The position numbers and the translations under genes are program-made. Shown here one piece after another: positions 10,691 through 29,007 of a stretch of 43,583 nucleotides of DNA (position 1 is the stretch's first letter; each line of letters begins with the position of its first letter). The DNA is from Tabrizicola sp. Its GTDB lineage: Bacteria > Pseudomonadota > Alphaproteobacteria > Rhodobacterales > Rhodobacteraceae. A model generated the notes under the pieces. The model worked only from the letters and a program-made list of their open reading frames with translations. It was not told where the DNA came from and ran no database searches. The stretch is taken from the NCBI RefSeq assembly GCF_016793705.1, contig NZ_JAEULO010000002.1, positions 1 through 43,583 on the forward strand, given 5' to 3'.

Positions 10691-11923
10691 TCACACCGGG
10701 TCTTCTGCCCCCGCCCCCCGGAACCACTTCACGATCGCCGCCCGCTCCTCCGGCTCGATGAAGCTCAGGTTGCCCGGCGGCATGGCATGGGTCACGCCCG
10801 CCTGAAGATAGATGCGCCGCGCCTCATGCGCGATCTCGGCTTCCGTCTCCAGCACCACGCCCTTGGGTGGCCAGTGCAGCCCCTCCCAGCCCGGTTCCGC
10901 CGCATGGCACATGCTGCACCGGCCCTGCACGATCCCCACCACCTCCTCGAACCCGTCGGCCGAGGCATAGACCAGCGCTTCGCCCTTCAGCGCGGCCTCG
11001 CCTTGCACCATGCGCATCGGCGCCGTGGAAAGCCAGGCGATCGCCAGGAACAAGAGCACCGTCACCAGCCATGTCCAGTGCGGGTTGCCCGCCCGGGCGT
11101 GCTTGGTGTTGAACCAGTGCCGGATCGTCACCCCCATCAGGAAGACGAGGCTGGCGATCACCCAGTTCCACTCCGTCGCGAACACGAGCGGATAGTGGTT
11201 CGACAGCATCAGGAAGACGACTGGCAGCGTCAGGTAGTTGTTGTGCGTCGACCGCTGCTTGGCGATCTTGCCGTATTTCGGGTCCGGCTTCCGCCCCGCT
11301 TTCAGGTCAGCCACCACGACGCGCTGGTTCGGCATGATCACGAAGAACACGTTCCCCGACATGATGCTGGCGGTGAAGGCCCCCAGATGCAGCATCGCCG
11401 CCCGGCCGGAAAACACCTGGGCATAGAACCAGCTCATCGCCACCAGCACGCCGAAGAGCGCGACCATCAGCACCGTCTGGTTCGCGTTCACGAAGACCTT
11501 GCACAGCGTGTTGTAGGCGATCCAGCCGAAGGCCAGCGATGCCAGCGAAATCCCCACCGCCTGCCAGACCTGCAACTCCATCACCGTCGGGTCGATCAGG
11601 AACAGCTCGGCCCCGAGGTAATAGACCAGCACCAGCATGGCGAAGCCAGACAACCAGGTCGCATAGCTTTCCCATTTGAACCAGACCAGATGATCCGGCA
11701 TCGAGGCCGGGGCAACCAGGTATTTCTGGATATGGTAGAACCCGCCGCCGTGGACCTGCCATTCCTCGCCATCCGCCCCGCTGGTCAGGTTGCGGTCGCG
11801 GTGCAGCCCAAGGTCCAGCGCGATGAAATAGAAGCTCGACCCGATCCAGGCGATTGCGGTGATCACATGCAGCCAGCGCACCGCGATCTCGACCCATTCC
11901 CCCAAGACGACCCAGTCATACAT
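10691..11923 (-). CDS. puuD: urate hydroxylase PuuD (membrane, cytochrome c-fused)
   Basis: A 410-residue integral membrane protein that oxidises urate to 5-hydroxyisourate, replacing soluble uricase in many alphaproteobacteria. The N-terminal membrane part has about seven to eight hydrophobic helices with typical blocks: VRWLHVITAIAWIGSSFYFIA, HGGGFYHIQKY, FKWESYATWLSGF and RSTHNNYLTLPVVFLMLSNHYP. The C-terminal part is a periplasmic cytochrome c domain with heme motif Cys336-Ser-Met-Cys339-His340 and a later MPPGN methionine ligand. The ATG at 11923 has GGGAGGG seven bases upstream; an ATG two codons earlier sits too close to that site. It ends at the convergent terminator. A LysR gene is divergent. 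Confidence 0.93.
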   Translation of the reverse strand: MYDWVVLGEWVEIAVRWLHVITAIAWIGSSFYFIALDLGLHRDRNLTSGADGEEWQVHGGGFYHIQKYLVAPASMPDHLVWFKWESYATWLSGFAMLVLVYYLGAELFLIDPTVMELQVWQAVGISLASLAFGWIAYNTLCKVFVNANQTVLMVALFGVLVAMSWFYAQVFSGRAAMLHLGAFTASIMSGNVFFVIMPNQRVVVADLKAGRKPDPKYGKIAKQRSTHNNYLTLPVVFLMLSNHYPLVFATEWNWVIASLVFLMGVTIRHWFNTKHARAGNPHWTWLVTVLLFLAIAWLSTAPMRMVQGEAALKGEALVYASADGFEEVVGIVQGRCSMCHAAEPGWEGLHWPPKGVVLETEAEIAHEARRIYLQAGVTHAMPPGNLSFIEPEERAAIVKWFRGAGAEDPV

Positions 11924-11969
11924 AGCCATCCCTCCCCGGCTTGTCGGCAAACGCTATCCTGCCGGGCAC

Positions 11970-11991
11970 CTTTCTGTTAATCCATAGAAAG
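11970..11991. promoter_or_regulatory. candidate LysR operator in the puuD-lysR gap
   Basis: A perfect inverted repeat, CTTTCT at 11970-11975 and AGAAAG at 11986-11991, with the 10-base spacer GTTAATCCAT. It lies in the 107-base gap between divergent puuD and the LysR gene, where a LysR-type regulator normally binds. It is the most symmetrical element in that gap. Binding itself is inference. Confidence 0.5.
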
Positions 11992-12030
11992 CCCGCATCA
12001 CTTTCAAGCCCACGCGAAGAATGACCCTGC

Positions 12031-12948
12031 ATGTCCTATGTGAACAACATCCGCATGTTCGTCCGCGTCTACGAACTGGGCAGCATGTCCGCCGCCGCCC
12101 GCGACCAGCGCACTTCGCCCGCCGTCGCCTCGGCCCGGATTTCCGAGCTGGAGAAGCATCTGGGCGTGCGCCTCTTCTCCCGCACCACCCGCAGCCTGCA
12201 ACCGACCGAGAATGGCCGCATCTTCTATGACGGGGCCCGCCGCGTGCTGGAAGCCATCGACGACGCCGAAGCCGCCGTGATGGACGTGACACAGAACCCG
12301 CGCGGGACGATCTTCGTCGCCGCCCCCCTTGGCATCGGTCGCCGCCTGATCGCGCCCCGCGTTCCCGCCTTCAAGGACCTCTACCCCCAGATCGACGTGC
12401 GTCTGCGGCTGTCCGACCGGGGCATCGACGTGGTGGCCGAAGGCATCGACGTGGCCTTCCACCTCGGCCTTCTCGACGATTCCACCCTCAAGGTCCGCAC
12501 CATCGCCGACTGCCCGCGCCTTCTCTGCGCCGCCCCCGGCTATGTCGCCCGGCGCGGGATGCCCGAGGATGGGGCCGCGCTGGTCAACGACCGGCACGAC
12601 TGCCTGAACCTCCGCTTCCCCGGCGCCAAGGAGTTCCAGTGGACCTTGCAAACCCCCGAAGGTCCGCGCCGCTTCGAGATCTCCGGCCCGTTCGAAAGCG
12701 ACGACGGCGACGTCCTGACCGGCTGGGCGCTCGACGGGCGCGGGATCGTGCTGAAACCGCTGTTCGAGGTCGCCGACCACCTGCGTGAAGGCCACCTCGT
12801 CCCCGTCGCCACCGCCACCCCACCCCTGCCGATCCAGCTTTCCGCGCTCAGCCAGCACCGCAGGCTGAAGGACCCTAAGGTCCAGCTCTTCACCGACTAC
12901 ATGGCTGCGCAAATCCGCGACGACCTGAGAAAAGCCGCCGTCCCGTAG
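12031..12948 (+). CDS. LysR family transcriptional regulator, probable regulator of urate genes
   Basis: A 305-residue LysR-type regulator of normal length. The winged helix-turn-helix occupies residues 1-60 (MFVRVYELGSMSAAARDQ, SARISELEKHLGVRLFSRTTR), followed by the linker helix and an effector domain (about 90-295). It belongs to the broad group in which the first helix carries MSAAAR. Position divergent from puuD, and between puuD and uraH, suggests it senses urate or a purine-breakdown product and controls these genes; the ligand is inference. The ribosome binding site before the ATG is weak. Two hairpins follow the stop. Confidence 0.85.
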   Translation: MSYVNNIRMFVRVYELGSMSAAARDQRTSPAVASARISELEKHLGVRLFSRTTRSLQPTENGRIFYDGARRVLEAIDDAEAAVMDVTQNPRGTIFVAAPLGIGRRLIAPRVPAFKDLYPQIDVRLRLSDRGIDVVAEGIDVAFHLGLLDDSTLKVRTIADCPRLLCAAPGYVARRGMPEDGAALVNDRHDCLNLRFPGAKEFQWTLQTPEGPRRFEISGPFESDDGDVLTGWALDGRGIVLKPLFEVADHLREGHLVPVATATPPLPIQLSALSQHRRLKDPKVQLFTDYMAAQIRDDLRKAAVP

Positions 12949-12999
12949 GGTGCGCAATCGTGGCGCACCAATGAATAGGGCGGGACCGAAGCCCCGCCC
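12949..12999. terminator. double hairpin between convergent lysR and DUF2125 genes
   Basis: The first stem is GGTGCGC at 12949-12955 with GCGCACC at 12963-12969. The second is GGGCGGG at 12978-12984 with CCCGCCC at 12993-12999. Both are perfect. They fill the 72-base gap between two convergent genes and probably end transcription from both sides. T-runs are absent. Confidence 0.6.
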
Positions 13000-13020
13000 C
13001 CTTGCAACCCGAAGGCCGGA

Positions 13021-14523
13021 TTACATCGGCAGCGGCTGGCCGTTCACCAGAATCTGCATGCCTTCCTTGGCCTCGATCTTCGAGGTCAGTTCGTCGGCAT
13101 TGGCGCCCGGCACGAAGAACATGCCCATCATCATCCGCGCGCCCATCGCGTCGTCTTCCGACAGGAGGCCGGTCTTGATCAGCCCGTCGATCAGCGCGTT
13201 GGCGCCGGTGATCGACACGTTCGCCTCGCCCAGCGGCATCGGAATGCCCATCGAGTTGTCGAAGGTGAAGGCCCCGGTCCCGGCCAGCGCCGCCCCAGCG
13301 ACCTTCAGGCCCAGCTCGGTGATGTTCAGGCTTTCCGGCGCCGGGATCGGCGGCTGCATGCCGCTTTCCTCGGCGGTGATCAGGCCCGGCAGGTCGATCT
13401 TGGTCTTGCCCGAGATATCGATGGCGATCTGTGCCGCATCGCGCGGCAACGCCGCCTGCGGGTCGAACATGGCCCAGGCTTCCTCGTTCAGGCTGAAGTC
13501 GGTGAGCTTCAGCAGGAACGAGTAGTCTCCCGCCGTTTCCGTCGCGATCACCGGCGAGGTCATGTCGAACTCCATCGGTCCCGACGTCACCTTGACCGGA
13601 ACCGGCAGCATGCCCGCGCCGGATTCGATGTTCAGCCCCGCCGCCATCGACTTGATCGAGAAGGTGTCCTTGTTGAACAGCGCCGAGCCTTCGCCGCCGC
13701 CCGCGCTCATCATCAGGTCCATCGGCATGAAGGCGCTTTCCTGCTTCATCGTGCCCTTCGACTCGCCCTGCTTGGTCGTCAGGCTGATGCTCAGCCCTTC
13801 ATTCAGCGCCGTGGTGAAATCGGCGGGCGAGGCGATGGCGGTCAGCGCGATGGTCGAGGGCAGCGCGAAGTCCAACGACATCTCGACGCCAGCGGTCTCG
13901 CTGGTCGAGGTCTGCTTCATCTCCATCCCCGGATCGTCCGAGTTGGTGGTATAGGCCAGTGTATCGGCCTTGATGTCGAAGCCGAAGGTCCGGTTGGTGC
14001 CGGGTGTGTCGGAATAGGTGCCCGACAGGTTGGTGAAGCCGACATTGCCCGACGCCGTCACCTTCGGCGCTTCCGACCCGTCGAAGGACATGCCCGGATA
14101 GGTGGTGTCATAGACCACGTCCAGCTTGGCCGCCGCATAGTCATAAGCCATGCCGCCATCGGCTTCGCGCGCGGTGATCGTCAGCCTGTCATGCGTCAGC
14201 TTCACCGAACCTTCCGCGTCGCCCGACATCGCCACGCCGATATCGGCGCCCGGTGCGATCGCCACCGACCCGTCCGACTGTTCGGTCAGCGTCATGTCGG
14301 AAATCGTCACGCCGGGCATCCCTTCCGGCGCGATCGTGACGCCGTTCAGCGTCAGGACGCCGCCAGAGTTGTTCTCGGTCGCCGCCGACACGGTCAGCCC
14401 GACCAGCCCGCCTGCATCCTTCCACGATTGCCAGACCTGATCCGCGGTCAGCGCGGCATGGGCGGTGCCCGACATCAAAAGCGCGAGGGCCGGCGCGGCC
14501 AAATAGTTCTTCATCCGAAACAT
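13021..14523 (-). CDS. DUF2125 domain secreted protein
   Basis: A 500-residue exported protein. The signal peptide is MFRMKNYLAAPALALLMSG followed by TAHA, with cleavage near residue 23. The mature protein starts ALTADQVWQSWKDAGG, the usual opening of Rhodobacteraceae DUF2125 proteins, and then alternates Gly/Ser/Thr-rich beta strands with methionine-rich stretches (SAFMPMDLMMSAGG, ARMMMGMFF). The composition suggests a large beta-rich periplasmic or outer-membrane-associated protein. No function is established. AAGGAGA five bases before the ATG at 14523 decides the start; a start 39 bases upstream would precede the signal peptide. The gene lies 105 bases downstream of uraH on the same strand, but a link to purine use is not shown. 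Confidence 0.85.
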   Translation of the reverse strand: MFRMKNYLAAPALALLMSGTAHAALTADQVWQSWKDAGGLVGLTVSAATENNSGGVLTLNGVTIAPEGMPGVTISDMTLTEQSDGSVAIAPGADIGVAMSGDAEGSVKLTHDRLTITAREADGGMAYDYAAAKLDVVYDTTYPGMSFDGSEAPKVTASGNVGFTNLSGTYSDTPGTNRTFGFDIKADTLAYTTNSDDPGMEMKQTSTSETAGVEMSLDFALPSTIALTAIASPADFTTALNEGLSISLTTKQGESKGTMKQESAFMPMDLMMSAGGGEGSALFNKDTFSIKSMAAGLNIESGAGMLPVPVKVTSGPMEFDMTSPVIATETAGDYSFLLKLTDFSLNEEAWAMFDPQAALPRDAAQIAIDISGKTKIDLPGLITAEESGMQPPIPAPESLNITELGLKVAGAALAGTGAFTFDNSMGIPMPLGEANVSITGANALIDGLIKTGLLSEDDAMGARMMMGMFFVPGANADELTSKIEAKEGMQILVNGQPLPM

Positions 14524-14628
14524 GCGGTTCTCCTTGAAGCCGAAAAAATTGCCCCGCCACATAAGACCTGTCGCGGCAAATGCGCAAGTGACGGTTTCAC
14601 CACCTTTTCGGGGCCGGAACGCCGCCGC

Positions 14629-14982
14629 TTACGACCCCCGATAGGTCGAATAGGCGAAGGGCGAGATCAGCAGCGGCACATGATAGTGCTGGCCCGCATC
14701 CGGCACCCCGAAGCGGATCGGGATTTCGTCAAGGAAAAGAACGCCTTCACCTGCCTGGCCCGTGGCCCGAAGATAGTCGCCCGCGCAGAAGACCAGCTCA
14801 TAGACCCCCTCGGTCAGTTTCGCGCCTTCCAGCAGCGGCGCATCGGTCCGCCCGTCGGCATTGGTGACAACTTCCGTCACCTTGCGATGGCTCTGCCCGG
14901 AAATCCGGTACAGCATGATCCTTACCCCCGCCGCGGGCTTGCCCTTCGCGGTGTCCAGTACATGCGTCGACAGCCGTCCCAT
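14629..14982 (-). CDS. uraH: 5-hydroxyisourate hydrolase (transthyretin-like)
   Basis: A 117-residue transthyretin-related protein that hydrolyses 5-hydroxyisourate, the product of PuuD, to OHCU. Active-site features are all present: His7 in LSTHVLDTAKGKPAAG, Arg45 in NADGRTDAP, His99 in GQHYHVPLL and the diagnostic C-terminal Tyr-Arg-Gly-Ser. There is no signal peptide, so it is cytoplasmic. AGGGAGG lies upstream of the ATG at 14982. The gene is divergent from puuE-uraD across a 142-base gap, which places three successive enzymes under one regulatory region. Confidence 0.97.
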   Translation of the reverse strand: MGRLSTHVLDTAKGKPAAGVRIMLYRISGQSHRKVTEVVTNADGRTDAPLLEGAKLTEGVYELVFCAGDYLRATGQAGEGVLFLDEIPIRFGVPDAGQHYHVPLLISPFAYSTYRGS

Positions 14983-15064
14983 CGTGATCCTCCCTTGCTT
15001 TCCACCATCAGACCACGAATTAACGCCCCAGGCGACCCGGCCTTGCCCGCATATGACTTTCCGT

Positions 15065-15092
15065 GAAATCCTGAAAATACTCTTCTGATTTC
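15065..15092. promoter_or_regulatory. candidate operator in the uraH-puuE gap
   Basis: GAAATC at 15065-15070 and GATTTC at 15087-15092 form a perfect but widely spaced (16 bases) inverted repeat in the divergent promoter region of uraH and puuE-uraD. The surrounding sequence is A/T-rich relative to the window, as expected for a promoter. This is weak evidence for a binding site. Confidence 0.3.
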
Positions 15093-15124
15093 TGCCCTAG
15101 TCTTGCCCGTGAAGGAGACCTCCC

Positions 15125-16552
15125 GTGACCGAACCGGCAAACCGCTATCCCCGAGATTTCCGTGGCTACGGCCCCAATCCTCCCGATGCCCGCTGGCCGG
15201 GCGGCGCGAAGATCGCCGTCTCCATCGTCCTCAACTACGAAGAGGGCGGCGAGAACAACATCCTGCACGGCGACGCCCAGTGCGAGGCCTTCCTCTCCGA
15301 CATCGCAGGGGCCGCCCCCTGGCCGGGGCAGCGCCACTGGAACATGGAATCGATCTACGACTACGGCGCGCGGGCGGGCTTCTGGCGGCTGCACCGGCTG
15401 TTCACCGGCATGAAGATCCCCGTCACCATCTACGGCGTGACCTCCGCGCTCGCCCGCAACCCCGAACAGGTTGCCGCGATGAAGGCCGCCGGGTGGGAAA
15501 TCGCCTCGCACGGCCTCAAATGGGTCGACCACCGCGACATGCCCCCCGAGGAAGAGGCCCGCCAGATCGCGGAGAGCTTCCGCCTGCACGAGGAGGTGGT
15601 GGGCGAGGCCCCGCAGGGCTGGTACACTGGCCGCTGCTCGATCAACACAGTGCGACTGACCGCCGAGACCCGCCGCCTCGCCTGGATTTCCGACACCTAC
15701 GACGACGACCTGCCCTATTGGCGCGAATATGGCGACCACGACCAGCTGGTGATCCCCTATACGCTGGAAGCCAATGACATGCGCTTCGCCACCGCGCCTG
15801 GCTACATCACCGGCGAGCAGTTCTATCAATATCTGAAGGACAGCTTCGACACGCTTTATGTCGAAGGGTCAGAGGGTTCGGCGAAGATGTTCTCGATCGG
15901 CCTGCACTGCCGCCTGATCGGTCGTCCCGGCAAGATCGCCGGACTGAAGCGCTTTCTCGACTATGCCAAATCGCACGACGGCGTCTGGTTTCCGCGTCGG
16001 ATCGAGATTGCAGAACATTGGAAAAAGACCCATCCGCACAAGCGGTTCGAGCGCCCCTCGCAGATGCCGCGCGACCGCTTCGTGAACCGCTTCGGTGGCA
16101 TTTTCGAACACTCGCCCTGGATCGCCGAACGCGCCTTCGACCTGGAGCTCGGCCCGGCGCATGACAGCGCCGCGGGTCTGCACAACGCGCTGACCCGGAT
16201 CTTCCGCTCGGCCTCGCCCGAGGAACGGCTCGGCGTCCTCAAGGCCCACCCCGACCTCGCCGGGAAACTGGCGGCGGCGAAGCGCCTGACACCGGAGTCC
16301 ACCGCCGAACAGGCCTCCGCCGCGCTGGATGCGCTCACCGACGAGGAGCGCGGCCGGTTCCAGCGGCTGAACGACGAGTATGTGCAGAAGCACGGCTTCC
16401 CCTTCATCATCGCCGTCCGCGACAATACCAAAGCCTCGATCCTCAAGGCCTTCCAGACCCGGCTGGCCAACGACACCGCGACCGAATTCGCCACCGCCTG
16501 CAAACAGGTGGAACGCATTGCCGAACTTCGCCTGAAGGACCAGCTGCCATGA
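15125..16552 (+). CDS. puuE: allantoinase PuuE fused to OHCU decarboxylase UraD
   Basis: A 475-residue bifunctional enzyme. Residues 1-305 are the metal-independent, polysaccharide-deacetylase-like allantoinase PuuE (YPRDFRGYG, SIVLNYEEGGENNILHGD, IASHGLKWVDHRDM, WYTGRCSINT, GLHCRLIGRPG). Residues 305-475 are UraD, the OHCU decarboxylase that yields S-allantoin, with its catalytic His near 328 (FEHSPWIAERAF), HPDLAGKLA near 374, EQASAALDAL and YVQKHGFPFIIAVR. The fusion therefore does two consecutive steps, OHCU to allantoin to allantoate. The start is a GTG at 15125 with GAAGGAG seven bases upstream. The 3' end overlaps allE by ATGA. Such fusions are known in alphaproteobacteria and some other groups. 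Confidence 0.95.
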   Translation: MTEPANRYPRDFRGYGPNPPDARWPGGAKIAVSIVLNYEEGGENNILHGDAQCEAFLSDIAGAAPWPGQRHWNMESIYDYGARAGFWRLHRLFTGMKIPVTIYGVTSALARNPEQVAAMKAAGWEIASHGLKWVDHRDMPPEEEARQIAESFRLHEEVVGEAPQGWYTGRCSINTVRLTAETRRLAWISDTYDDDLPYWREYGDHDQLVIPYTLEANDMRFATAPGYITGEQFYQYLKDSFDTLYVEGSEGSAKMFSIGLHCRLIGRPGKIAGLKRFLDYAKSHDGVWFPRRIEIAEHWKKTHPHKRFERPSQMPRDRFVNRFGGIFEHSPWIAERAFDLELGPAHDSAAGLHNALTRIFRSASPEERLGVLKAHPDLAGKLAAAKRLTPESTAEQASAALDALTDEERGRFQRLNDEYVQKHGFPFIIAVRDNTKASILKAFQTRLANDTATEFATACKQVERIAELRLKDQLP

Positions 16553-17403
16553 CCAGGACCCAATCCACCTACTACGCCCCGCCCGGCGGCCTGCCGCCGC
16601 AGACCGCGCTGATGACCCAGCGCGCGGTCTTCACCACGGCCTATGCCTTCATCCCGAAAGGCTGTTTCTCCGATATCGTGACCAGCTGCCTGCCCGGCTG
16701 GACGAAAACCCGCCTCTGGCTCATCGCCCGGCCCATGTCGGGCTTCGCCGAGACCTTCAGCCAGTATGTAATGGAGGTCGCCCCCGGCGGTGGGTCCGAT
16801 GCGCCCGACCCGGACATGGGGGCCGAGCACTGGCTCTTCTTCACCGAGGGCCTCGCCACCCTGACCCTCGACGGCACCGGCACCGAGATGGAGGCAGGCT
16901 CCTACGCCTATATCCCCGCCGGGTCGCGCTGGACGCTTCTTGCCGAGGGCAAGTCCCCCGCGCGCTTCCACTGGCTGCGCAAGATCTACGAACCCGCCCC
17001 CGGCGTGCCCGCACCCGAGCCGCTGATCATCAATGAACGCGACGTCCCCGTCCGCTGGATGCCGGACACGCAAGACCGCTGGGGCACGACCCGCTTCGTC
17101 GAACCCGACGACATCCGCCACGACGCGCATGTCAACATCGTCACCTTCCAGCCCGGAGGCGTCATACCGTTCGAGGAGACGCATGTCATGGAGCACGGCC
17201 TCTATGTCCTGGAAGGCAAGGCCGTCTACAAGCTGAACCAGGACTGGGTCGAGGTCGAGGCGGGAGATTTCATGTGGCTCCGCGCCTACTGCCCGCAGGC
17301 CTGCTACGCCGCCGGACCGGGGCGCTTCCGCTATCTGCTCTACAAGGACGTGAACCGCCACGCCAGGCTGCGCGGCCCCGGCGCCTTCGGGCCCCTGCGC
17401 TGA
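16549..17403 (+). CDS. allE: (S)-ureidoglycine aminohydrolase (bicupin)
   Basis: A 284-residue double-cupin protein of the AllE/YlbA/UGlyAH family that releases ammonia from S-ureidoglycine to give S-ureidoglycolate. The N-terminus STYYAPPGGLPPQT is typical. The first cupin spans about residues 60-130 (EHWLFFTEGLATLTLDG). The second, about 190-270, carries the Mn-binding pattern ETHVMEHGLYVLEGKAVYKL and the AGDFMWLRAYCPQACYAAG block. It overlaps the puuE-uraD stop by four bases (ATGA), so translation is coupled. The enzyme that makes its substrate, allantoate amidohydrolase, is not in the window. Confidence 0.93.
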   Translation: MTRTQSTYYAPPGGLPPQTALMTQRAVFTTAYAFIPKGCFSDIVTSCLPGWTKTRLWLIARPMSGFAETFSQYVMEVAPGGGSDAPDPDMGAEHWLFFTEGLATLTLDGTGTEMEAGSYAYIPAGSRWTLLAEGKSPARFHWLRKIYEPAPGVPAPEPLIINERDVPVRWMPDTQDRWGTTRFVEPDDIRHDAHVNIVTFQPGGVIPFEETHVMEHGLYVLEGKAVYKLNQDWVEVEAGDFMWLRAYCPQACYAAGPGRFRYLLYKDVNRHARLRGPGAFGPLR

Positions 17404-17405
17404 TG

Positions 17406-17461: not shown

Positions 17462-17488
17462 TCCGACGCCAGCCACCGGAAGTCGCGC

Positions 17489-17965
17489 ATGAGAACCCTG
17501 CACCCCGCCCCCCTCACGCCGGAAGCCTTCGCTCCGTTCGGCGATGTGCTGGATGCCACCGGCGACTTCCGCCTGATCAACGAAGGCATGTGCCAGCGCC
17601 ACCACGATCGCGCGACGCTCGACTTCGGCCCCGAAGGCCGGGCGGGCATCTCCATCTTCCAAGCCAAGCCCCGCGCGTTGCCCTACAGCTTCGACCTGAT
17701 CGAACGCCACCCCGAAGGGTCACAGGCCTTCCTGCCGATGAGCGAGCATCCCTTCCTCGTCATCGTCTCGACCGGCCCCGAGGCGACCCCGCTGGCTTTC
17801 CTCACCAACGGCGCCCAGGGCATCAACCTGCACCGCGGCACCTGGCATGGCGTGCTGGCACCCTTGTCCGCCCCGGGTCTCTTTGCGGTCGTGGACCGCA
17901 TCGGTCCGACACCGAACCTTGAAGAATACCGCTACGCAACGCCGTGGACGGTCCTCGCGCCCTGA
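17489..17965 (+). CDS. allA: ureidoglycolate lyase
   Basis: A 158-residue cupin-like AllA that splits S-ureidoglycolate into glyoxylate and urea. Family landmarks are LTPEAFAPFGDVL, FQAKPRALPYSFDLIERHPEGSQAF, FLPMSEHPFLVIV, the INLHRGTWHGVLAPL motif and the closing PNLEEYRY. It is cytoplasmic. It is the last catabolic step of this pathway and yields the substrate for the BHAC cluster 6 kb downstream. It is separated from allE by a repeat copy and followed by the permease 84 bases later. Confidence 0.94.
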   Translation: MRTLHPAPLTPEAFAPFGDVLDATGDFRLINEGMCQRHHDRATLDFGPEGRAGISIFQAKPRALPYSFDLIERHPEGSQAFLPMSEHPFLVIVSTGPEATPLAFLTNGAQGINLHRGTWHGVLAPLSAPGLFAVVDRIGPTPNLEEYRYATPWTVLAP

Positions 17966-18049
17966 CGGCGCGCCTCTAACCGGATCGCACCCATGGGGCA
18001 GTGCGAAGACGGCGCGAAGATAAACGCCCCAAGGGAAAAGGAAACCACC

Positions 18050-22298: not shown

Positions 22299-22521
22299 GT
22301 CTGTCCCCCCTGCACTGTGCTGATCCGGTGCCGCCTCCGGGCGGGCCGCCGGTCGCTGGTCTGGCCCAAGCATGGCCCGCCGGAAGCCCCCGCGTCAAAT
22401 GCGGAACTGTGTCGCAGGAAGGTTCCTGTGGGGGCCGAAGGGGAATTGGCGGCGCGGATTTCCACCCGCGGGCAAAGCTTGCCAAATCCTTAACGCCTAC
22501 AGGCAAACATCTGATTAAAAA

Positions 22522-22550
22522 CGATATATCGGAAATGTCCACCGTGGACA
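22522..22550. promoter_or_regulatory. two palindromes in the gap between gap and the EF-G-like gene
   Basis: CGATATATCG (22522-22531) and TGTCCACCGTGGACA (22536-22550) are both perfect inverted repeats. They lie just after the gap stop, 224 to 252 bases upstream of the EF-G-like start. The 254-base gap is A/T-rich around 22480-22535. They could be a promoter-operator for the EF-G-like gene or a terminator for gap; no T-run is seen. Confidence 0.4.
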
Positions 22551-22552
22551 GA

Positions 22553-23527
22553 TCACCCCATCCGCAGTGCCATGTCCAGCATCCGGTTGGAGAAGCCCCA
22601 TTCATTGTCATACCACCCGAAGACCCGCAGCATCCCGCCCTCGGAAAGCTTCGTCTCCGGGCAGGCCATCACCACCGACTCGGCCCGCGCCCGCAGGTCG
22701 CTGGAGACGAGCGGCCGGTCCGTCGCCCCGATCACCCCCCCGGCCGCCCGGAAGACCGCATTGACCTCCTCGACCGAGGGCCGCTTCTCCGTCACCAGAT
22801 GGAAGTCCACACAGGACACCGAAGCGACCGGCACCCGGACCGCCTGCGCCACGACCCTTCCCTTGAGGTCCGGCAGCACCCCGTCCAGAAGCCGCGCGGC
22901 CGAGGTCGTGGTCGGCACCATCGACAACGCCGCCGCCCGGCTGCGGGGATAGTCGGCGGCGGGGGCATCCACCGTCGGCTGGCTGCCGGTATAACAGTGG
23001 ACCGTCGTCATCGACCCGGTCACGATCCCCCAGTTCTGATGGATAAGCTTCGCCAGAGGGGCCAGCGCGTTCGTCGTGCAGGAGGCGTTCGAGACGATCT
23101 TCTGCTCGCGCAGAACCCCGTCATTCGCCCCCATGACCACCGTCACCTCCGCCGCCGAGGACGGCCCCGACACCAGCACCCGTGAGGCCCCCGCCCTCAG
23201 CCCCCGCTCCGCCACCTCCCGCGTCTCGGCCCGCCCGGTACATTCCATCACCAGGTCGACACCCGCCAGGTCCAGAGTGGAAAGGTCCGGGGTGCGAGCA
23301 AGCGGCACCCGCCGCCCGTCGATGACCAGCGCCCCGCCCTCCAGCGCGACGCTGCCCTTCCAGGGCCCGAAGACCGAGTCGTATTCAAAGAGATAGGCGC
23401 ACATCTCCGGCGCGGCGATGTCGTTGATCCCGACGATCTCCAGCCCAGGCCAGCGCTCTGGCGCCAGCAGGAAGGCCCGCAGCACCGACCGCCCGATCCG
23501 CCCGAACCCGTTGATGAAGACCCGCAT
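22553..23527 (-). CDS. gap: glyceraldehyde-3-phosphate dehydrogenase family protein
   Basis: A 324-residue phosphorylating GAPDH-family enzyme. It has the Rossmann start MRVFINGFGRIGRSVLRAF, NAD-preferring Asp36 in GIND, catalytic Cys150 in SNASCTTNALAPL, His177 in VHCYTGSQ and the closing WYDNEWGFSNRM. The segment SGPSSAAEVTVVMGAND (120-136) differs from the common SAPAK block, and the protein is slightly short, so this looks like a diverged paralogue; erythrose-4-phosphate dehydrogenase is an alternative. The ATG at 23527 follows GGGAGAGCGGG and opens the conserved N-terminus, so the longer open frame upstream is ignored. It is separated from bhcD by a double hairpin, hence probably its own transcript. 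Confidence 0.9.
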   Translation of the reverse strand: MRVFINGFGRIGRSVLRAFLLAPERWPGLEIVGINDIAAPEMCAYLFEYDSVFGPWKGSVALEGGALVIDGRRVPLARTPDLSTLDLAGVDLVMECTGRAETREVAERGLRAGASRVLVSGPSSAAEVTVVMGANDGVLREQKIVSNASCTTNALAPLAKLIHQNWGIVTGSMTTVHCYTGSQPTVDAPAADYPRSRAAALSMVPTTTSAARLLDGVLPDLKGRVVAQAVRVPVASVSCVDFHLVTEKRPSVEEVNAVFRAAGGVIGATDRPLVSSDLRARAESVVMACPETKLSEGGMLRVFGWYDNEWGFSNRMLDMALRMG

Positions 23528-23620
23528 CCCGCTCTCCCGCGTCCCGTCAGGCGCAGTCTCACCACGGGCCGGGGATCGCTTCAACGCCCATCTTGTTCCC
23601 CGCACAATGCACCGGGCGCG

Positions 23621-23665
23621 CCGGAGTTTTCGAAAACTCCGGTCCGATTTCTTGGAAGAAATCGG
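23621..23665. terminator. tandem palindromic terminators after bhcD
   Basis: Two perfect hairpins one base apart: CCGGAGTTTTC and its complement form a 22-base palindrome at 23621-23642, and CCGATTTCTT, a GG spacer and AAGAAATCGG make another 22-base element at 23644-23665. They begin 4 bases after the bhcD stop on the minus strand. The A/T-rich stems suit intrinsic termination in either direction. Confidence 0.75.
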
Positions 23666-23669
23666 CGCC

Positions 23670-24629
23670 TCAGACCCCGACCTCGATCCCAAGCCCCCGC
23701 TCGCGGGCCCGCTGCACCGCCACCGCCGCGACGGCAAGGTCCTGCAAGCCCACCCCGGTCCCGTCGAAGAGCGTGATCTCGCTGTCCGATCGCCGCCCCG
23801 GATGCGCGCCGGTCAGCACCTCGCCCAGCGGCACGATGGCGCTGGCATCCAGCAGCCCCGCCCCGACCGCGTGCTGCGCCTCGCCGATGCTGATCGACTG
23901 CGACACCTCGTCGGTGAAGACCGATGCCACCGCGACCAGCGCCGGGTCGACCTCCTGCTTGCCCACGGTGTCGGTGCCCATGCAGGACAGATGCGTGCCG
24001 GGCGAAACATGCTCGGCCAGAAGGCTCGCGGAAGGAGAAGAGGTGATGGTCACGATCACCTCCGCCTCGCGCATCCGGGGCAGGCCGACCGCCTCGAAGG
24101 GCAGGCCCAGTTCGGCGGCGACGGCCCCGAGTTTCGGCAACATCTCGGGGTGCAGGTTCCAGGCGATCACCCGCTCGAACCGCCGCACCCGCGCCGCCGC
24201 CCGCAGCTGGAAACCGGCCTGATGCCCCGCGCCGGCGATGCCCAGCACATGCGCTTGCGGCGCCGCGAGGCGGTCGATGGCGATGGCACTGGCCGCTGCC
24301 GTGCGCAGCGCGGTCAGGAGGTTGCCGCCCACCATCGCCACGGGCCGCCCGGTGTCGGGGTCGAACAGGAAGACCGAGGACTGGTGGTTGATCATCCCCT
24401 TCGCCGCGTTGCCGGGAAAGTAACCGCCCGCCTTCACGCCCAACTGGCCGCCCGCCCGGTCCAGCCCGGACTTGAAGCCGTATTGCCGACCTTCGCCCAG
24501 CGCCTCGCGGACCACGGGGAAGTTGTAGGCCTCGCCCCGGGCCATGGCGGCGAAACAGGATTCGACCGCGCGGAAGGCGTCTTCCGGGCTGACGAGCTGG
24601 GCGATCAGCGCCTCGGGGACGATGAGCAT
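23670..24629 (-). CDS. bhcD: iminosuccinate reductase BhcD (ornithine cyclodeaminase/mu-crystallin family)
   Basis: A 319-residue NAD(P)-dependent enzyme. By family and context it reduces iminosuccinate to L-aspartate, the last step of the beta-hydroxyaspartate cycle. Landmarks are the Lys-containing YGFKSGLDRAGGQLGVKAGGYFPGN block (about 50-75), RTAAASAIAIDRLA, the Rossmann motif GIAGAGHQAGFQ (about 131-142), VTITSSPSASLL and CMGTDTVGKQEVD. The ATG at 24629 matches the family N-terminus (MLIVPEAL) with AAAGGACC upstream. It is the distal gene of the bhcABCD operon, separated from bhcC by 81 bases that hold a repeat copy. Without context it would be annotated ornithine cyclodeaminase. Confidence 0.93.
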   Translation of the reverse strand: MLIVPEALIAQLVSPEDAFRAVESCFAAMARGEAYNFPVVREALGEGRQYGFKSGLDRAGGQLGVKAGGYFPGNAAKGMINHQSSVFLFDPDTGRPVAMVGGNLLTALRTAAASAIAIDRLAAPQAHVLGIAGAGHQAGFQLRAAARVRRFERVIAWNLHPEMLPKLGAVAAELGLPFEAVGLPRMREAEVIVTITSSPSASLLAEHVSPGTHLSCMGTDTVGKQEVDPALVAVASVFTDEVSQSISIGEAQHAVGAGLLDASAIVPLGEVLTGAHPGRRSDSEITLFDGTGVGLQDLAVAAVAVQRARERGLGIEVGV

Positions 24630-24657
24630 GGGGTGGTCCTTTGTGGCAGATGGTGGA

Positions 24658-24713
24658 GCGGGGGTTTCACACCCCCGCACCCCCGTGGGATACTTTCAGA
24701 CAGAAAATGATCA
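24658..24713 (-). repeat. AAATATCCC-family intergenic repeat, copy 3
   Basis: On the minus strand it starts with the TGA stop of bhcC (TGATCATTTTCTGTCTG), continues AAAGTATCCCACGGGGG and ends in a hairpin with stem GCGGGGGT (24658-24665 against 24671-24678). It lies between bhcC and bhcD in sense orientation and may act as an attenuator within the operon. Confidence 0.75.
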
Positions 24714-25874
24714 GTAAGCCTTGCCGCGGGCCGAGACCGGCCAGACGACCTCGACCTTGCCGTTCCTCACGCCGACATACCAGTCGTGGACGTTGCAGGT
24801 CGGGTCGCAGTGGCCGGGGATCAGCTTCAGCTTGTCGCCGACCTTGAGGACGCCCGAGGGGTCGTCGATCACCCCATGTTCGTCGCTGCACTTGATGTAC
24901 TTGACGTCATCACGCCCGAAGATCACCGGCAGGCCAGAATCCACCGACTGCGCCTTGAGCCCCGCGTCGCAGATCGCCTTGTCGGCCTTCACATGGCTCA
25001 TCACCGAGGTCAGGATGAACAGCGCATTCTCCCATTCGCCGCGGTCGATGCGGTTGCCGTCCTTGTCGAGGATGCGGCCGTAATCGGCATCCATGAAGGC
25101 GTAGCTGCCGCATTGCAGCTCGTTGTAGACGCCGGACCCGCTTTCGAAATAATACGACCCGGTGCCGCCGCCCGAGACCAGGTCCGGCTTCAGCCCAGCC
25201 GCTTCCAGCGCCGCGACGCAAGCCTTCACCTGGGCGATGGCGGCATCCAGCTTGGCCTTGCGGTCCTCATAGAGATCCATGTGCTGCATCGCGCCCTGAT
25301 AAGCCTGGATGCCGGTGAACTTGAGGCCCGGCGCGGCGGCCACCGCCTTGGCGATCACCACCACCTCCTCGGGCGTCTTCACCCCGCAGCGGCCCGCGCC
25401 GCAGTCGATCTCCACGAAGACCTCCAGCTGGGTGCCGTGCTTCACCGCCGCCGCCGAGAGGTCGGCCACGTTGGCCACGTCATCGACGCAGACGATGGTC
25501 CGCGCGCCCAGTTTCGGCAACCGCGCCAGCCGGTCGATCTTGGCCGGATCGCGCACCTGGTTCGACACCAGAATGTCCTTGATCCCGCCACGGGCGAAGA
25601 CCTCCGCCTCGGACACCTTCTGGCAGCACACCCCGACCGATCCGCCCAGCCGCTCCTGCAGCTTCGCCACGTCGACCGACTTGTGCATCTTGCCATGCAC
25701 CCGGTGCCGCATCCCGTGCGCCTTGGCATAGTCGCCCATCTTGACGATGTTGCGCTCCAAGGCGTCGAGGTCGAGGATCAGGCAGGGCGTCTGGATGTCC
25801 TTCTCGTCCATCCCCGGCAGGGCAGGAATGTCGTAGCCCACCTCGAACCCTTCGAAATTCGTCTGCTTGTTCAT
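24711..25874 (-). CDS. bhcC: beta-hydroxyaspartate aldolase BhcC
   Basis: A 387-residue PLP enzyme of the D-threonine-aldolase/alanine-racemase-like fold. It condenses glycine with glyoxylate to beta-hydroxyaspartate. The N-terminal barrel holds IQTPCLILDLDALERNI and the HRVHGKMHKS motif, with the Schiff-base lysine most likely Lys62. The C-terminal beta domain carries the divalent-metal site His355-Cys-Asp357 in GHCDPTCNVHDWYVGV. Length and sequence style match characterised BhcC rather than generic D-threonine aldolases, and the neighbours bhcA, bhcB and bhcD settle it. It starts 4 bases after bhcB, with AAAGGGTAAGACC before the ATG. Confidence 0.95.
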   Translation of the reverse strand: MNKQTNFEGFEVGYDIPALPGMDEKDIQTPCLILDLDALERNIVKMGDYAKAHGMRHRVHGKMHKSVDVAKLQERLGGSVGVCCQKVSEAEVFARGGIKDILVSNQVRDPAKIDRLARLPKLGARTIVCVDDVANVADLSAAAVKHGTQLEVFVEIDCGAGRCGVKTPEEVVVIAKAVAAAPGLKFTGIQAYQGAMQHMDLYEDRKAKLDAAIAQVKACVAALEAAGLKPDLVSGGGTGSYYFESGSGVYNELQCGSYAFMDADYGRILDKDGNRIDRGEWENALFILTSVMSHVKADKAICDAGLKAQSVDSGLPVIFGRDDVKYIKCSDEHGVIDDPSGVLKVGDKLKLIPGHCDPTCNVHDWYVGVRNGKVEVVWPVSARGKAY

Positions 25875-25878
25875 GGTC

Positions 25879-26847
25879 TTACCCTTTCATCCAGGGGAGT
25901 TTGTCCAGATCGACGTTGCCGCCGGTGATGATGATGCCCACGCGCTTGCCCCGGAAGGCGTCGCGGTTCTTCAGGACCACGGCCAGCGGCACCGCGCTGG
26001 AGGGTTCCATGACGACGCGCAAATGCTTCCAGGTCAGCTTCATCGCCTCGATGATCTCGTCCTCCGAGGCGGTGTAGATCTCGCTGACATGGGTCGACAC
26101 GAAATGCCAGGTCAGGTCCTTCAGCGGCACCAGCAACCCGTCGGCAATGGTCTTCGGCGCGTCGTCGGCGATGATATGCCCGGCCTTGAAGCTGCGATAG
26201 GCGTCATCGGCCTGCTCGGGCTCGGCGGCGATCACTTTCGTCTCCGGGGCCAGCGTCGACAGCGTCAGGCAGGTGCCCGAGATCATGCCGCCACCGCCAA
26301 TGGGGGCGACAACCATGTCAAGCCCGTCCACCTGTTCGATGAACTCGCGCGAAGAGGTGCCCTGCCCGGCGATGACGCGGGGATCGTTGTAGGGGTGGAC
26401 GAAATCGCCGCCGGTCGCCGCCTGCACCTGCGCGAAGGTCGCCTCGCGCGAGGAGGTCGAGGGCTCGCATTCGGTGATCACGCCCCCGTAGCGGCGCACG
26501 GTGTCCTTCTTCGCCTGCGGCGCGGTGCGCGGCATGACCACGTTGCAGGGGATGCCCCGCAGCATGGCGGCGTAGCTCAGGCAGGAGGCATGGTTGCCGC
26601 TGGAATGCGTGGCAACACCCTTCTGCGCCTGCGCCTCGGACAGCCCGAAGACCGCGTTCGTCGCCCCACGCACCTTGAAAGCGCCCGGCTCCTGGAAGTT
26701 TTCGCATTTGAAGAACAGCTGCGCGCCGCTCAGCTCGTTCAGGTAGTCCGAGCTGCGGACCGGCGTGCGGCGGATATGCGGGCGGATACGGTCATGCGCG
26801 GCCAGCATGTCGTCAAAGGTCGGGATGTGCAGGGTCATGTCCTTCAT
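25879..26847 (-). CDS. bhcB: beta-hydroxyaspartate dehydratase BhcB
   Basis: A 322-residue fold-type II PLP enzyme (serine/threonine dehydratase family) that dehydrates beta-hydroxyaspartate to iminosuccinate. Lys58 in QEPGAFKVRGA is the PLP lysine. THSSGNHASCLSYAA (Ser82, Asn85) binds the substrate carboxylate, VAPIGGGGMISGT cradles the PLP phosphate and IITGGNVDLD closes the fold. The short N-terminus and absence of a regulatory ACT domain fit this catabolic role. bhcA ends 3 bases upstream (GAGTGAGGAATG), indicating coupled translation; an ATG three codons later is also possible. Confidence 0.95.
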   Translation of the reverse strand: MKDMTLHIPTFDDMLAAHDRIRPHIRRTPVRSSDYLNELSGAQLFFKCENFQEPGAFKVRGATNAVFGLSEAQAQKGVATHSSGNHASCLSYAAMLRGIPCNVVMPRTAPQAKKDTVRRYGGVITECEPSTSSREATFAQVQAATGGDFVHPYNDPRVIAGQGTSSREFIEQVDGLDMVVAPIGGGGMISGTCLTLSTLAPETKVIAAEPEQADDAYRSFKAGHIIADDAPKTIADGLLVPLKDLTWHFVSTHVSEIYTASEDEIIEAMKLTWKHLRVVMEPSSAVPLAVVLKNRDAFRGKRVGIIITGGNVDLDKLPWMKG

Positions 26848-26850
26848 TCC

Positions 26851-28041
26851 TCACTCCGCCGCCAGCGCCATGGCCGGGACCGTTCCTCGATAATACTCCT
26901 GCGCCGCGGCCACGCCCGAGCCGAGTTTCACCGGCCAACCGAGGTCCGCCATGCACATCTCGGCGACCGCAAGGCCCGACAGGACCATGGCGTCGGTCAG
27001 CATCCCCAGATGGCCAATGCGGAACACCTTGCCCGCGACCTGGCCCAGCCCGACGCCGAAGGCCATGCCGAATTTCGAGGCCGCCAGCTGCACCAGCGCC
27101 GTGCCGTCGCAGCCGGGCGGCACCTTCACCGCCGTCACGGTGTCGGAATACAGGTCCGCAGACGCCGCATAGGGCGTCATTCCCCAGGCAAAGACCGCGC
27201 GGCGCACGCCTTCGGCAAGCCGGTGGTGGCGGGCGTAGACATTGTCGAGGCCCTCGGTTTCCAAGAGGTCGATGGAATGCGCGAGGCCCGCGATCAGGCC
27301 CACGGCGGGCGTGTAGGGATAGCCGCCGCGGGCGTAGGCGGACAGCATGTCCTTGAAATCGAAGAAGGTTCGGGGCAACCGCGCCGTCTCCATCGCCGCA
27401 AGCGCTTTCGGTGAGACCCCGAGGATCGCCAGCCCGGCTGGCAGCATGAAGCCCTTCTGGCTGCCAGCCACGGCGATATCCACGCCCCAGCCCGCGAAGT
27501 CGAAGGGCATCGAGGCGATGGAGGACACCCCGTCGACGAACAGCATCGCCGGATGCCCCGCCGCGTCCAGCGCGCGGCGGATGCCCGCGATGTCGGACTT
27601 CACGCCCGTCGCCGTCTCGTTGTGGGTGGCGAGCACCGCCTTGATCTGCTGCGCCTTGTCCGCATTCAGCGCCTTCTCGATGGCCGCAAGCGGCGCGCCC
27701 TGCCCCCAGGGCGTCTCGATGATCTGCACGTTCAGCCCGTGACGCTGGCACAGGTCGATCCAGCGGTGGCTGAACATGCCGAACCGCGCCGCCAGCACGG
27801 TGTCGCCGGGGGAAAGCGTGTTGCTGATCGCCGCCTCCCAGCCGCCCGTGCCGGTCGAGGGGATCACGATGACCTCACCCTGATCCATCTTCAGCACCCG
27901 CTGCACCCCTGCCACCGCAGGTTTGAACAGCCGCGCGAAGGCCGGCGAGCGGTGATCCAACGTCGGCATGTCGCAGGCCTTGCGCACCGAATCGGGAATG
28001 TTGGTCGGGCCCGGAATGAAGACGGGGTTCTGCATGGACAT
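26851..28041 (-). CDS. bhcA: L-aspartate--glyoxylate aminotransferase BhcA
   Basis: A 396-residue class V aminotransferase that moves the amino group of aspartate to glyoxylate, giving glycine and oxaloacetate, the net product of the cycle. Visible features are VFIPGPTNIPDSVRKAC, STGTGGWEAAISNTL, THNETATGV, FVDGVSSIASMPFDF (PLP Asp170) and Lys196 in AGSQKGFMLPAGLA, the PLP lysine, then ARGGYPYTPAVGLI. It resembles serine/alanine-glyoxylate aminotransferases and would be called that in isolation. It is the first gene of the operon, with GGGAG before the ATG at 28041, and is divergent from bhcR. Confidence 0.95.
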   Translation of the reverse strand: MSMQNPVFIPGPTNIPDSVRKACDMPTLDHRSPAFARLFKPAVAGVQRVLKMDQGEVIVIPSTGTGGWEAAISNTLSPGDTVLAARFGMFSHRWIDLCQRHGLNVQIIETPWGQGAPLAAIEKALNADKAQQIKAVLATHNETATGVKSDIAGIRRALDAAGHPAMLFVDGVSSIASMPFDFAGWGVDIAVAGSQKGFMLPAGLAILGVSPKALAAMETARLPRTFFDFKDMLSAYARGGYPYTPAVGLIAGLAHSIDLLETEGLDNVYARHHRLAEGVRRAVFAWGMTPYAASADLYSDTVTAVKVPPGCDGTALVQLAASKFGMAFGVGLGQVAGKVFRIGHLGMLTDAMVLSGLAVAEMCMADLGWPVKLGSGVAAAQEYYRGTVPAMALAAE

Positions 28042-28106
28042 CGGGCAACTCCCTGTAAGATCGCCCGGAAAAGCTACGCCCTGCGACCAATGCGCGCAAT
28101 TTTTTC

Positions 28107-28119
28107 GAAAAGATTTTTC
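28107..28119. promoter_or_regulatory. candidate BhcR operator in the bhcA-bhcR gap
   Basis: GAAAA-GAT-TTTTC is a perfect inverted repeat at 28107-28119, overlapping a second palindrome TTTTCGAAAA at 28102-28111. It sits in the middle of the 153-base gap between bhcA and bhcR, in the most A/T-rich stretch. IclR-family regulators bind short palindromes of this kind in divergent promoters. Direct binding by BhcR at these bases is inference. Confidence 0.5.
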
Positions 28120-28194
28120 ATTCCTTCATGCCCATGCTAATCCCCAATCCAGTCAATACCTTGCGCTTTTTCACCCCTTTGGAGGGCACGAACC

Positions 28195-29007
28195 ATGGCA
28201 CAGAAACCCCGCGGTCGGCCGAAGGCGTTCAACGACAAGACCGACCAGAACACGGTGCAGGCGCTGGACCGCGGCCTCGACATCCTGACCCATGTCGCGC
28301 TCAACCCCGGCCGCACCCTGTCGGAGATCGCGGAAGACACCGGCGAGGCGATCGCCACCGTCTTCCGCGCGCTCGTCACCCTGCAAGGGCACGGCATGGT
28401 CGAGGCCGACGAACCCGGCCAGTTCTGGCACATCGGCCCCGGCGCCTTCCGCGTGGGGTCCGCCTTCCTGCGCCGCACCAAGGTGGTCGAACGCGCCCGG
28501 CAGCCGATGGACCAGCTCATGCGCGAAACCGGGGAAACCGCGAACCTTGGCATCGAGGTCAAGGATGAGGTCTTCTTCGTGGCCCAGGTCGAGACCTACG
28601 AGGCGATCCGGGCCTTCTTCCCGCCCGGCACCCGCGCACCGATGCACTCCAGCGGCATCGGCAAGGCGCTTCTCGCCTGGTATCCCGAGGAGAAGACCCG
28701 CGGCATCATCGCCCGCAAGGGGCTGGAGAAGTTCACCTCTCTCACCCTCACCAGCGACAGCGCGCTGATGCGCGACCTCTCCCGCACTCGCGACCGCGGC
28801 TTTTCCATCGACGACCAGGAACGCGCCGAGGGGATGCGCTGCGTCGCCGCCCCCATCTTCAACGCGCATGGCGAGCCGGTCGCGGGCCTCTCCGTCTCCG
28901 GCCCCGCCTTCCGCATGGGGCTTTCCGACGCGACCCGCATCGGCGCGCTGGTCCGGGCGGCGGCGGACCAGGTGACAGAGGCCACCGGCGGCACCCAGCC
29001 CGCGTGA
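28195..29007 (+). CDS. bhcR: IclR family regulator BhcR (glyoxylate-responsive)
   Basis: A 270-residue IclR-type regulator. The N-terminal winged helix (about residues 18-85) reads QALDRGLDILTHVALNPGRTLSEIAEDTG and ATVFRALVTLQGHGMVE. The C-terminal effector domain (100-265) has PMHSSGIGKALLAW, RDRGFSIDDQERAEGMRCVAAPIFN and PVAGLSVSGP. BhcR proteins of this cluster sense glyoxylate and control bhcABCD; here that is assigned by position and family. GGAGGG lies 7 bases before the ATG. It is divergent from bhcA with 153 bases between and ends 83 bases before betC. Confidence 0.93.
   Translation: MAQKPRGRPKAFNDKTDQNTVQALDRGLDILTHVALNPGRTLSEIAEDTGEAIATVFRALVTLQGHGMVEADEPGQFWHIGPGAFRVGSAFLRRTKVVERARQPMDQLMRETGETANLGIEVKDEVFFVAQVETYEAIRAFFPPGTRAPMHSSGIGKALLAWYPEEKTRGIIARKGLEKFTSLTLTSDSALMRDLSRTRDRGFSIDDQERAEGMRCVAAPIFNAHGEPVAGLSVSGPAFRMGLSDATRIGALVRAAADQVTEATGGTQPA

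Follow-up and report, generated by a model that had tools for sequence, protein, structure and literature searches.

Genes for urate breakdown and for the beta-hydroxyaspartate cycle are recurrently linked in Rhodobacterales

Introduction

In the ocean, the beta-hydroxyaspartate cycle (BHAC) is regarded as the route by which glycolate from algae is used. Here we analyze a stretch of DNA from Tabrizicola sp. (Rhodobacteraceae) in which the genes of this cycle, bhcABCD, and the gene of its regulator, bhcR, lie close to genes for urate and ureide breakdown. The stretch, called the window below, comprises 43,583 nucleotides (positions 1 to 43,583 of contig NZ_JAEULO010000002.1, assembly GCF_016793705.1).

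According to the sections accessible in the papers cited here, BhcR of Paracoccus denitrificans binds the bhc promoter at a putative palindrome, glyoxylate weakens this binding in vitro, and BhcR is required for the induction of bhc by glyoxylate (PMC11323563). The same paper places glcDEF of this species at Pden_4397-99, and its introduction lists purines and allantoin as possible glyoxylate sources. The BHAC has also been discussed for ethylene glycol (PMC12214560, PMC11166783); in the accessible part of PMC12214560, a word search did not find the words purine, xanthine, allantoin or urate. In Pseudomonas aeruginosa, a gcl cluster is induced by allantoin and is needed for growth on allantoin as the sole carbon source (PMC12694930). 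A literature search, which was not full-text throughout, found no earlier report of a bhc-ureide neighbourhood, and a prior mention is possible.

The link described here between genes for purine breakdown and genes for glyoxylate assimilation is real, widespread and recurrent, and it goes beyond what the original prediction could show. It suggests that many Rhodobacter-type bacteria make biomass from purines through a route known mainly for glycolate. With a probability of about 0.8, the locus represents a two-part catabolic module that leads from urate via glyoxylate to oxaloacetate. In the first part, PuuD, UraH, PuuE-UraD, AllE, AllA and an importer of the NCS2 family would break urate down, with urea, ammonia, CO2 and glyoxylate as the products; in the second part, BhcABCD would turn two molecules of glyoxylate into one of oxaloacetate, with CO2 kept. 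These enzyme functions are predicted from family membership. AllA-derived glyoxylate likely feeds the BHAC, and use of purines as a carbon source via the BHAC is plausible. A glyceraldehyde-3-phosphate dehydrogenase (GAPDH), encoded by gap behind bhcD, may pass the carbon into gluconeogenesis.

Results

Linkage of allA and bhcC in the order Rhodobacterales

The frequency of the linkage was quantified in a sample of 292 genomes of the order. AllA was found in 285 genomes and BhcC above its cut-off in 167; gene placement was analyzed for 147 of the latter, and 146 of these 147 also contained AllA. In 60 of the 146 genomes, from 37 of 65 genera, allA was at most 20 kb from bhcC (at most 10 kb in 55), whereas uniform placement in a genome of 4 Mb would yield about 1.5 linked genomes. 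Among the matches listed for malate synthase G, which served as a control, none was at most 20 kb from BhcC (0 of 79 genomes) or from AllA (0 of 118). The neighbourhood is thus conserved among relatives, and the lack of conservation that the original prediction had named as its refutation was not observed. The prediction had also envisaged a conserved distance between allA and the bhc genes. Conserved spacing was rejected, because the distances ranged from 1.05 to 17.9 kb; it is the order that is conserved.

The number of 60 is a lower bound, because some loci without a linked allA keep another ureide gene beside bhc, such as allE in locus L259 and puuD in L263. Outside the family, BhcC scored above the cut-off in ten genomes, seven of which contained AllA, and in two of these seven the genes were linked; genomes G666 and G633 showed the convergent layout, with distances of 2.5 and 3.9 kb.

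A second set consisted of 80 named loci, the best 80 of 591 confirmed matches to the window BhcC with flanks of up to 10 kb; it partly overlaps the 292-genome sample, which makes the two counts interdependent. One or more ureide genes were present in the flanks of bhcC in 50 of the 80 loci, none was present in 20 long loci, and 10 loci were too short to be classed as unlinked. The count rises to 51 if a PuuD-like match of 36% in L238 is included, which was dropped for the tree described below. Linked isolates also belonged to the Ahrensiaceae (Oricola), the Aurantimonadaceae (Fulvimarina) and the Rhizobiaceae (Rhizobium lusitanum).

Gene orders and nesting of bhc within the ureide genes

For the analysis of gene order, 60 loci were fetched, namely those of 59 near genomes and a second copy from the window's own genome, which replaced the window. 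In 53 of the 60 linked genomes of the sample the two parts were arranged tail to tail, with the allA genes pointing towards the 3' end of bhcABCD. A frequent order was puuD, lysR, uraH, puuE-uraD, allA, NCS2-like permease, bhcDCBA, bhcR and allE, the permease being about 32% identical to that of the window. In 30 of the 60 loci, allE was situated directly beyond bhcR, or beyond bhcA where bhcR was undetected; the latter applied to six of the 30, in which allE precedes bhcA on the same strand at a distance of 202-293 bp. Among 20 AllA loci from genomes without BhcC above the cut-off, seven had allA and allE face to face, separated by no more than two called genes and without bhc; L129 is an eighth, with three genes in between. 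Because allE flanks the far side of bhc, and because allA and allE face each other where bhc is lacking, bhc sits within the ureide gene set. In some loci (e.g. L144, L130 and L140) the caller of open reading frames overlooked known genes.

Other arrangements were also found. The bhcR side was next to allA-allE-puuE in G110 and G227 and next to puuD-lysR-uraH-puuE-allA in G063 and G210; G211 showed a further variant, and G233 contained an inverted block. In L129, L133, L152 and L157, gap was found between allA and allE, at the place of bhc in other loci; the respective genomes either lack BhcC above the cut-off or carry bhc elsewhere. This gap gene is perhaps the trace of a lost bhc.

A quick tree of BhcB and BhcC from the 80 named loci, with SH-aLRT (Shimodaira-Hasegawa-like approximate likelihood ratio test) support only and midpoint rooting, required at least 11 changes of the linked/unlinked label. 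For the convergent layout the number required was 14, and at least seven of these changes were forced by starred branches. The Paracoccus layout (see below) was found on two deep bhc lineages, which the midpoint root separates. Such label changes cannot distinguish gain from loss. They are read most simply as bhc having been lost, gained or replaced repeatedly at ureide loci, and passive inheritance alone explains them poorly. Two bhc lineages were present in Ruegeria: loci L197, L208, L213, L222 and L237 lack ureide genes nearby, and L229, L230 and L233, of the other lineage, have bhc inside the ureide cluster.

These results bear on the possibility that the synteny was merely inherited, i.e. 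that a single ancestral neighbourhood without function was retained by chance. The uniform orientation of 53 of the 60 near cases, many of which come from related genera, would agree with it, as would the convergent layout of the window, which does not allow co-transcription. However, at least five layouts exist (convergent, allE flanking, same-strand in Paracoccus, bhcR-side and inverted), two deep bhc lineages occupy the same Paracoccus site, the label changes recur on the tree, and linkage extends to Oricola, Fulvimarina and Rhizobium lusitanum isolates and to two of the seven other-family genomes with both genes. We regard retention by chance as quite improbable.

Same-strand arrays in Paracoccus and gene sets on plasmids

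Coupling looks tighter in Paracoccus, where a purine importer and urate genes follow bhcABCD on one strand. This arrangement, with bhcABCD, then a permease, then uraH and/or puuD, was found in 13 Paracoccus loci. The annotated records of Paracoccus sp. SMMA_5 and P. ferrooxidans both show bhcABCD, then the genes for a purine permease and 8-oxoguanine deaminase, and uraH; the permease follows after 44 and 39 bp, respectively, the deaminase gene overlaps by 1 bp, and uraH begins 17 bp further on. About 200 bp beyond uraH lies a gene annotated as PuuD in SMMA_5 and as cysteine desulfurase in P. ferrooxidans, and in the latter species it is followed by xdhAB. The position of the deaminase gene between permease and uraH, seen in Paracoccus L250 (12171-16806) and L251 (12166-16810), suggests that oxidised guanine may enter the route as well; the gene at the puuD position of L251 is annotated as cysteine desulfurase.

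On a plasmid of Leisingera aquaemixtae, the order is xdhA, LysR, puuD, LysR, uraH, puuE, allA, NCS2, an AmiS/UreI transporter, bhcDCBA, bhcR, allE and modCBA, a nearly full gene set from guanine/xanthine to oxaloacetate; the stretch stops inside xdhA. Plasmid P3 of Pseudosulfitobacter pseudonitzschiae carries a guanine/xanthine-to-oxaloacetate set in about 21 kb, in the order bhcDCBA, bhcR, allE, guaD, permease, xdhCBA, LysR, puuD, LysR, uraH, puuE and allA. No UraD is annotated on P3; presumably it forms part of the 470-residue PuuE as a fusion. Plasmid searches with BhcC and with AllA each retrieved 45 Pseudosulfitobacter and 17 Leisingera records, and gene order was inspected in two such records. 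A Defluviimonas plasmid contains allE, bhcR, bhcABCD, NCS1, malic enzyme, NCS2 and AmiS/UreI. As counter-examples, an Aminobacter plasmid has bhc without a ureide gene within 10 kb, and a Limimaricola plasmid has ureide genes without bhc within 12 kb.

Glycolate as a possible alternative source of glyoxylate

The BHAC might instead serve glycolate (and ethylene glycol), with the purine neighbourhood as a mere parking site. The Paracoccus work, in the parts accessible, tests glycolate, glyoxylate or ethylene glycol (PMC11323563, PMC12214560), and the window's own genome encodes a GlcD-like protein, which scored 437 bits with a cut-off of 568. However, a search of 180 bhc or allA loci, which could miss a divergent GlcD, found no close relative of this protein, whereas 50 of the 80 named loci have ureide genes at most 10 kb from bhcC. 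The search of the 180 loci yielded two weak matches with 27-30% identity, and linkage of glycolate oxidase was rejected on this basis. We consider the parking-site explanation unlikely.

Regulation

The bhcA/bhcR intergenic regions contain a palindrome with the consensus TGAAA-N5-TTTCA and T-rich flanks. With at most two mismatches it was present in 111 of 120 regions (exactly in 59), compared to 14 of 120 when the regions were shuffled. In the window, the putative operator between bhcA and bhcR (Table 1) was the sole site at the threshold used. Because the two parts of the window are separate convergent transcription units, coupling is proposed at the metabolite level: BhcR would sense the glyoxylate released by AllA, and bhcABCD would be turned on. 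Given the putative BhcR site at bhc and the glyoxylate response seen in P. denitrificans (PMC11323563), purine-derived glyoxylate would act on bhc without a shared promoter.

A position weight matrix (PWM) was built from the bhcA/bhcR sites and applied to the ureide intergenic regions. Between uraH and puuE, scores of at least 10 were obtained in 32 of 95 regions (1.5 expected from shuffles), of at least 14 in 18 (0.3 expected) and of at least 18 in six (0.0 expected); many of these matches look like half-sites, and related genomes inflate the counts. For comparison, scores of at least 10 were reached in 3 of 66 puuD/lysR regions (1.5 expected), in 4 of 89 regions upstream of puuD (1.0), in 1 of 94 for allE (0.4), and in 0 of 119, 0 of 92 and 0 of 41 for allA, xanP and gap, respectively. 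By group, uraH/puuE matches were found in 21 of 48 near loci versus 1 of 16 loci lacking BhcC. However, the commonest long-spaced palindrome detected de novo in the uraH/puuE-uraD regions (L063-L242) was a different one, TTTC-N11-GAAA, present in 28 of 95, which is a possible site of either the urate LysR regulator or BhcR. Control of the uraH/puuE-uraD promoter by BhcR in some lineages is taken as a lead only.

Organization of the window locus

Family searches bore out the original gene list, i.e. puuD, uraH, puuE-uraD, allE, allA, the permease, bhcDCBA and bhcR (Table 1). Additionally, the locus contains genes that had not been mentioned: those for an ion channel, an EF-G-like protein and a type I GAPDH, which separate the permease from bhcD, and those for a LysR regulator and a DUF2125 protein. 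The end of allA is 5.7 kb from bhcD.

Table 1. Features of the window locus. Positions refer to the whole window; scores are in bits, followed by the cut-off where one is given.
Feature	Position	Strand	Family match	Remark
puuD, membrane urate hydroxylase (urate to 5-hydroxyisourate)	10691-11950	-	PF06181 (Urate_ox_N) 446	
LysR-type regulator	12031-12948	+	Pfam HTH_1 and LysR_substrate	divergent from puuD
DUF2125 protein	13021-14562			
uraH, 5-hydroxyisourate hydrolase	14629-14982	-	TIGR02962 132/87	
puuE-uraD, allantoinase fused to OHCU (2-oxo-4-hydroxy-4-carboxy-5-ureidoimidazoline) decarboxylase	15125-16552	+	TIGR03212 506/425; TIGR03164 208/96	
allE, (S)-ureidoglycine aminohydrolase	16549-17403	+	NF008373 502/445; NF040771 468/350	
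allA, ureidoglycolate lyase (to glyoxylate and urea)	17489-17965	+	PF04115 175/23; NCBIfam NF002952 244/260	
NCS2 xanthine/urate-type permease	17993-19522	+	TIGR03173 523/414	
EF-G-like protein, 657 aa	20400-22373		NF009379 706/513	between ureide and bhc parts
gap, type I GAPDH	22553-23527	-	TIGR01534 332/367	ATG at 23527; same strand as bhcD
bhcD, iminosuccinate reductase	23670-24629	-	NF045643 518/500	ATG at 24629, open frame to 24680
bhcC, 3-hydroxy-D-aspartate aldolase	24711-25874	-	NF045642 772/690	
bhcB, beta-hydroxyaspartate dehydratase	25879-26847	-	NF045641 575/550	
bhcA, L-aspartate:glyoxylate aminotransferase	26851-28041	-	NF045640 714/650	
putative BhcR operator	28102-28124		palindrome with one mismatch	bhcA/bhcR intergenic
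bhcR, IclR-type glyoxylate-responsive regulator	28195-29007	+	NF045644 396/350	

The ureide unit and the bhc unit are convergent, tail to tail. The genes puuE-uraD and allE overlap by 4 bp, and gaps of 85 bp and 27 bp follow between allE and allA and between allA and the permease gene; by this spacing the four genes look like one operon. By their spacers of 3, 4 and 81 bp, bhcA, bhcB, bhcC and bhcD look like a second one. BhcA to BhcD each score above the curated cut-off, and bhcR is divergent from bhcA with the palindrome between them. The puuD/lysR pair was found again at other loci, and the LysR protein likely regulates the urate genes.

A gene for every step from urate to glyoxylate is present, with the allantoate step depending on AllE being bifunctional, as indicated by the name of the NF040771 model ('bifunctional allantoicase/(S)-ureidoglycine aminohydrolase'); AllE may act on allantoate as well. 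A search with PF03561 (allantoicase) gave no match, but the control genomes were silent as well, and the best score for AllC (allantoate amidohydrolase) was 218 with a cut-off of 598. XdhA scored above its cut-off in the own genome (583, cut-off 467).

The gap gene starts 142 bp beyond the bhcD stop codon, and two palindromes able to form hairpins were read by eye on the minus strand of this spacer (23528-23669), perhaps marking a transcript end or a processing site. Because of the length of the spacer and these two possible hairpins, co-transcription of gap with bhcABCD is uncertain and is not claimed. In 37 of 181 sequences, gap was found at most 3 kb behind bhcD on the same strand. Two loci, L255 (10681-15462) and L259 (12173-16730), carry behind bhcD genes for GAPDH and for a malic-enzyme-like protein of 759-762 aa; the latter proteins scored 934 and 974 bits with a subfamily cut-off of 1178. 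This pair of genes looks like an attached gluconeogenesis route.

Choline sulfatase and choline-dehydrogenase-like GMC genes follow bhcR in the window (29091-32519), and the same pair adjoins bhcR in L114, L163, L216 and L203, the last of which has no ureide genes within 10 kb. Glycine, a substrate of BhcC, can be the end product of choline breakdown.

The gene order from DUF2125 to GMC is repeated on a second contig of the own assembly (L114, G000:C48:52000-71999), with 86-88% DNA identity across about 20 kb. It is also found in L163 from another metagenome-assembled genome, except for the stretch from allA to gap. The EF-G-like gene was also seen in L114. L114 probably represents a related strain that was co-binned, the estimated contamination of the assembly being 4.48%. 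A chimera or assembly artefact at the locus is unlikely, since the gene order recurs in L114 and L163.

Discussion

It had been predicted that purine-derived glyoxylate enters biomass via the BHAC rather than via glyoxylate carboligase (Gcl). The absence of Gcl above the cut-off from all 292 genomes of the order, the own genome included, fits this proposal; the same search found Gcl above the cut-off in one of 14 control genomes and scored at most four candidates per genome, and a low-ranked true Gcl could escape it. Exclusivity of the BHAC did not hold: malate synthase G, another outlet for glyoxylate, scored above its cut-off in 259 of the 292 genomes, the own genome included, and therefore the BHAC is not the sole outlet. 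Exclusivity is weakened further by the 119 of 292 genomes in which AllA is present without BhcC above the cut-off. Malate synthase G needs acetyl-CoA and does not by itself allow net growth on glyoxylate.

Both counts also weigh against the two-part module, and so do several other observations. In 86 of the 146 genomes the genes were not seen linked within 20 kb; they were farther apart on one contig in 21 and on different contigs in 65, which include drafts, where a contig split is not proof of distance. In the genus of the window, only the window genome was linked among four listed (the distance was 54.7 kb in one of the others, and the genes were on different contigs in two). No BhcR operator was found before puuE-uraD or uraH of the window, the PWM score of 9.9 being under the lowest threshold. 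The two hairpins may leave GAPDH outside the bhc operon. Furthermore, the carbon yield is low, as glyoxylate receives two of the five carbons of a purine.

Purines are rich in nitrogen, and they might serve for nitrogen only, with the BHAC clearing toxic glyoxylate or giving a minor supplement beside another carbon source; the presence of malate synthase G and the genomes with AllA and no BhcC above the cut-off would suit this explanation. Nevertheless, gap behind bhcD and the malic-enzyme-like protein (two loci and the Defluviimonas plasmid) have the look of a growth module. In addition, P. aeruginosa mutants of the gcl cluster did not grow on allantoin as the sole carbon source, but grew on glucose plus allantoin (accessible parts of PMC12694930). 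We regard a role in nitrogen supply alone as a minority possibility of some weight, and favor the two-part module from urate to oxaloacetate.

A more far-reaching proposal is put forward tentatively, and in our view it is rather doubtful: the BHAC might be kept in Rhodobacterales chiefly as the last section of purine catabolism. The complete module, from guanine/xanthine to oxaloacetate, would be carried on plasmids of algae-associated bacteria as well; in some lineages BhcR would additionally control uraH/puuE-uraD, and glycolate use would be secondary. If the link is functional, dissolved purines would give both carbon and nitrogen via the BHAC, without the loss of CO2 that Gcl entails. The group concerned is widespread, and no Gcl scored above the cut-off in its 292 sampled genomes.

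Among the described systems, the BHAC of P. denitrificans (bhcRABCD) resembles the window in that five proteins score above the NCBIfam cut-offs and bhcR is divergent, with a palindrome between. However, it has been described for glycolate and glyoxylate, and the accessible parts of PMC11323563 treat purines only as a possible glyoxylate source, whereas bhc of the window lies beside or within urate and ureide genes. The gcl cluster PA1498-PA1502 of P. aeruginosa is similar in that glyoxylate assimilation serves allantoin breakdown (PMC12694930, as far as accessible). P. aeruginosa uses Gcl, whereas the BHAC takes that place here. In the AllR system of E. coli, the glyoxylate is derived from AllA. 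The AllR regulon, which comprises allantoin and glyoxylate genes, also shares with the window an IclR-type regulator that senses glyoxylate (accessible part of PMC11323563), but it differs in that the BhcR-type site of the window is present only at bhc.

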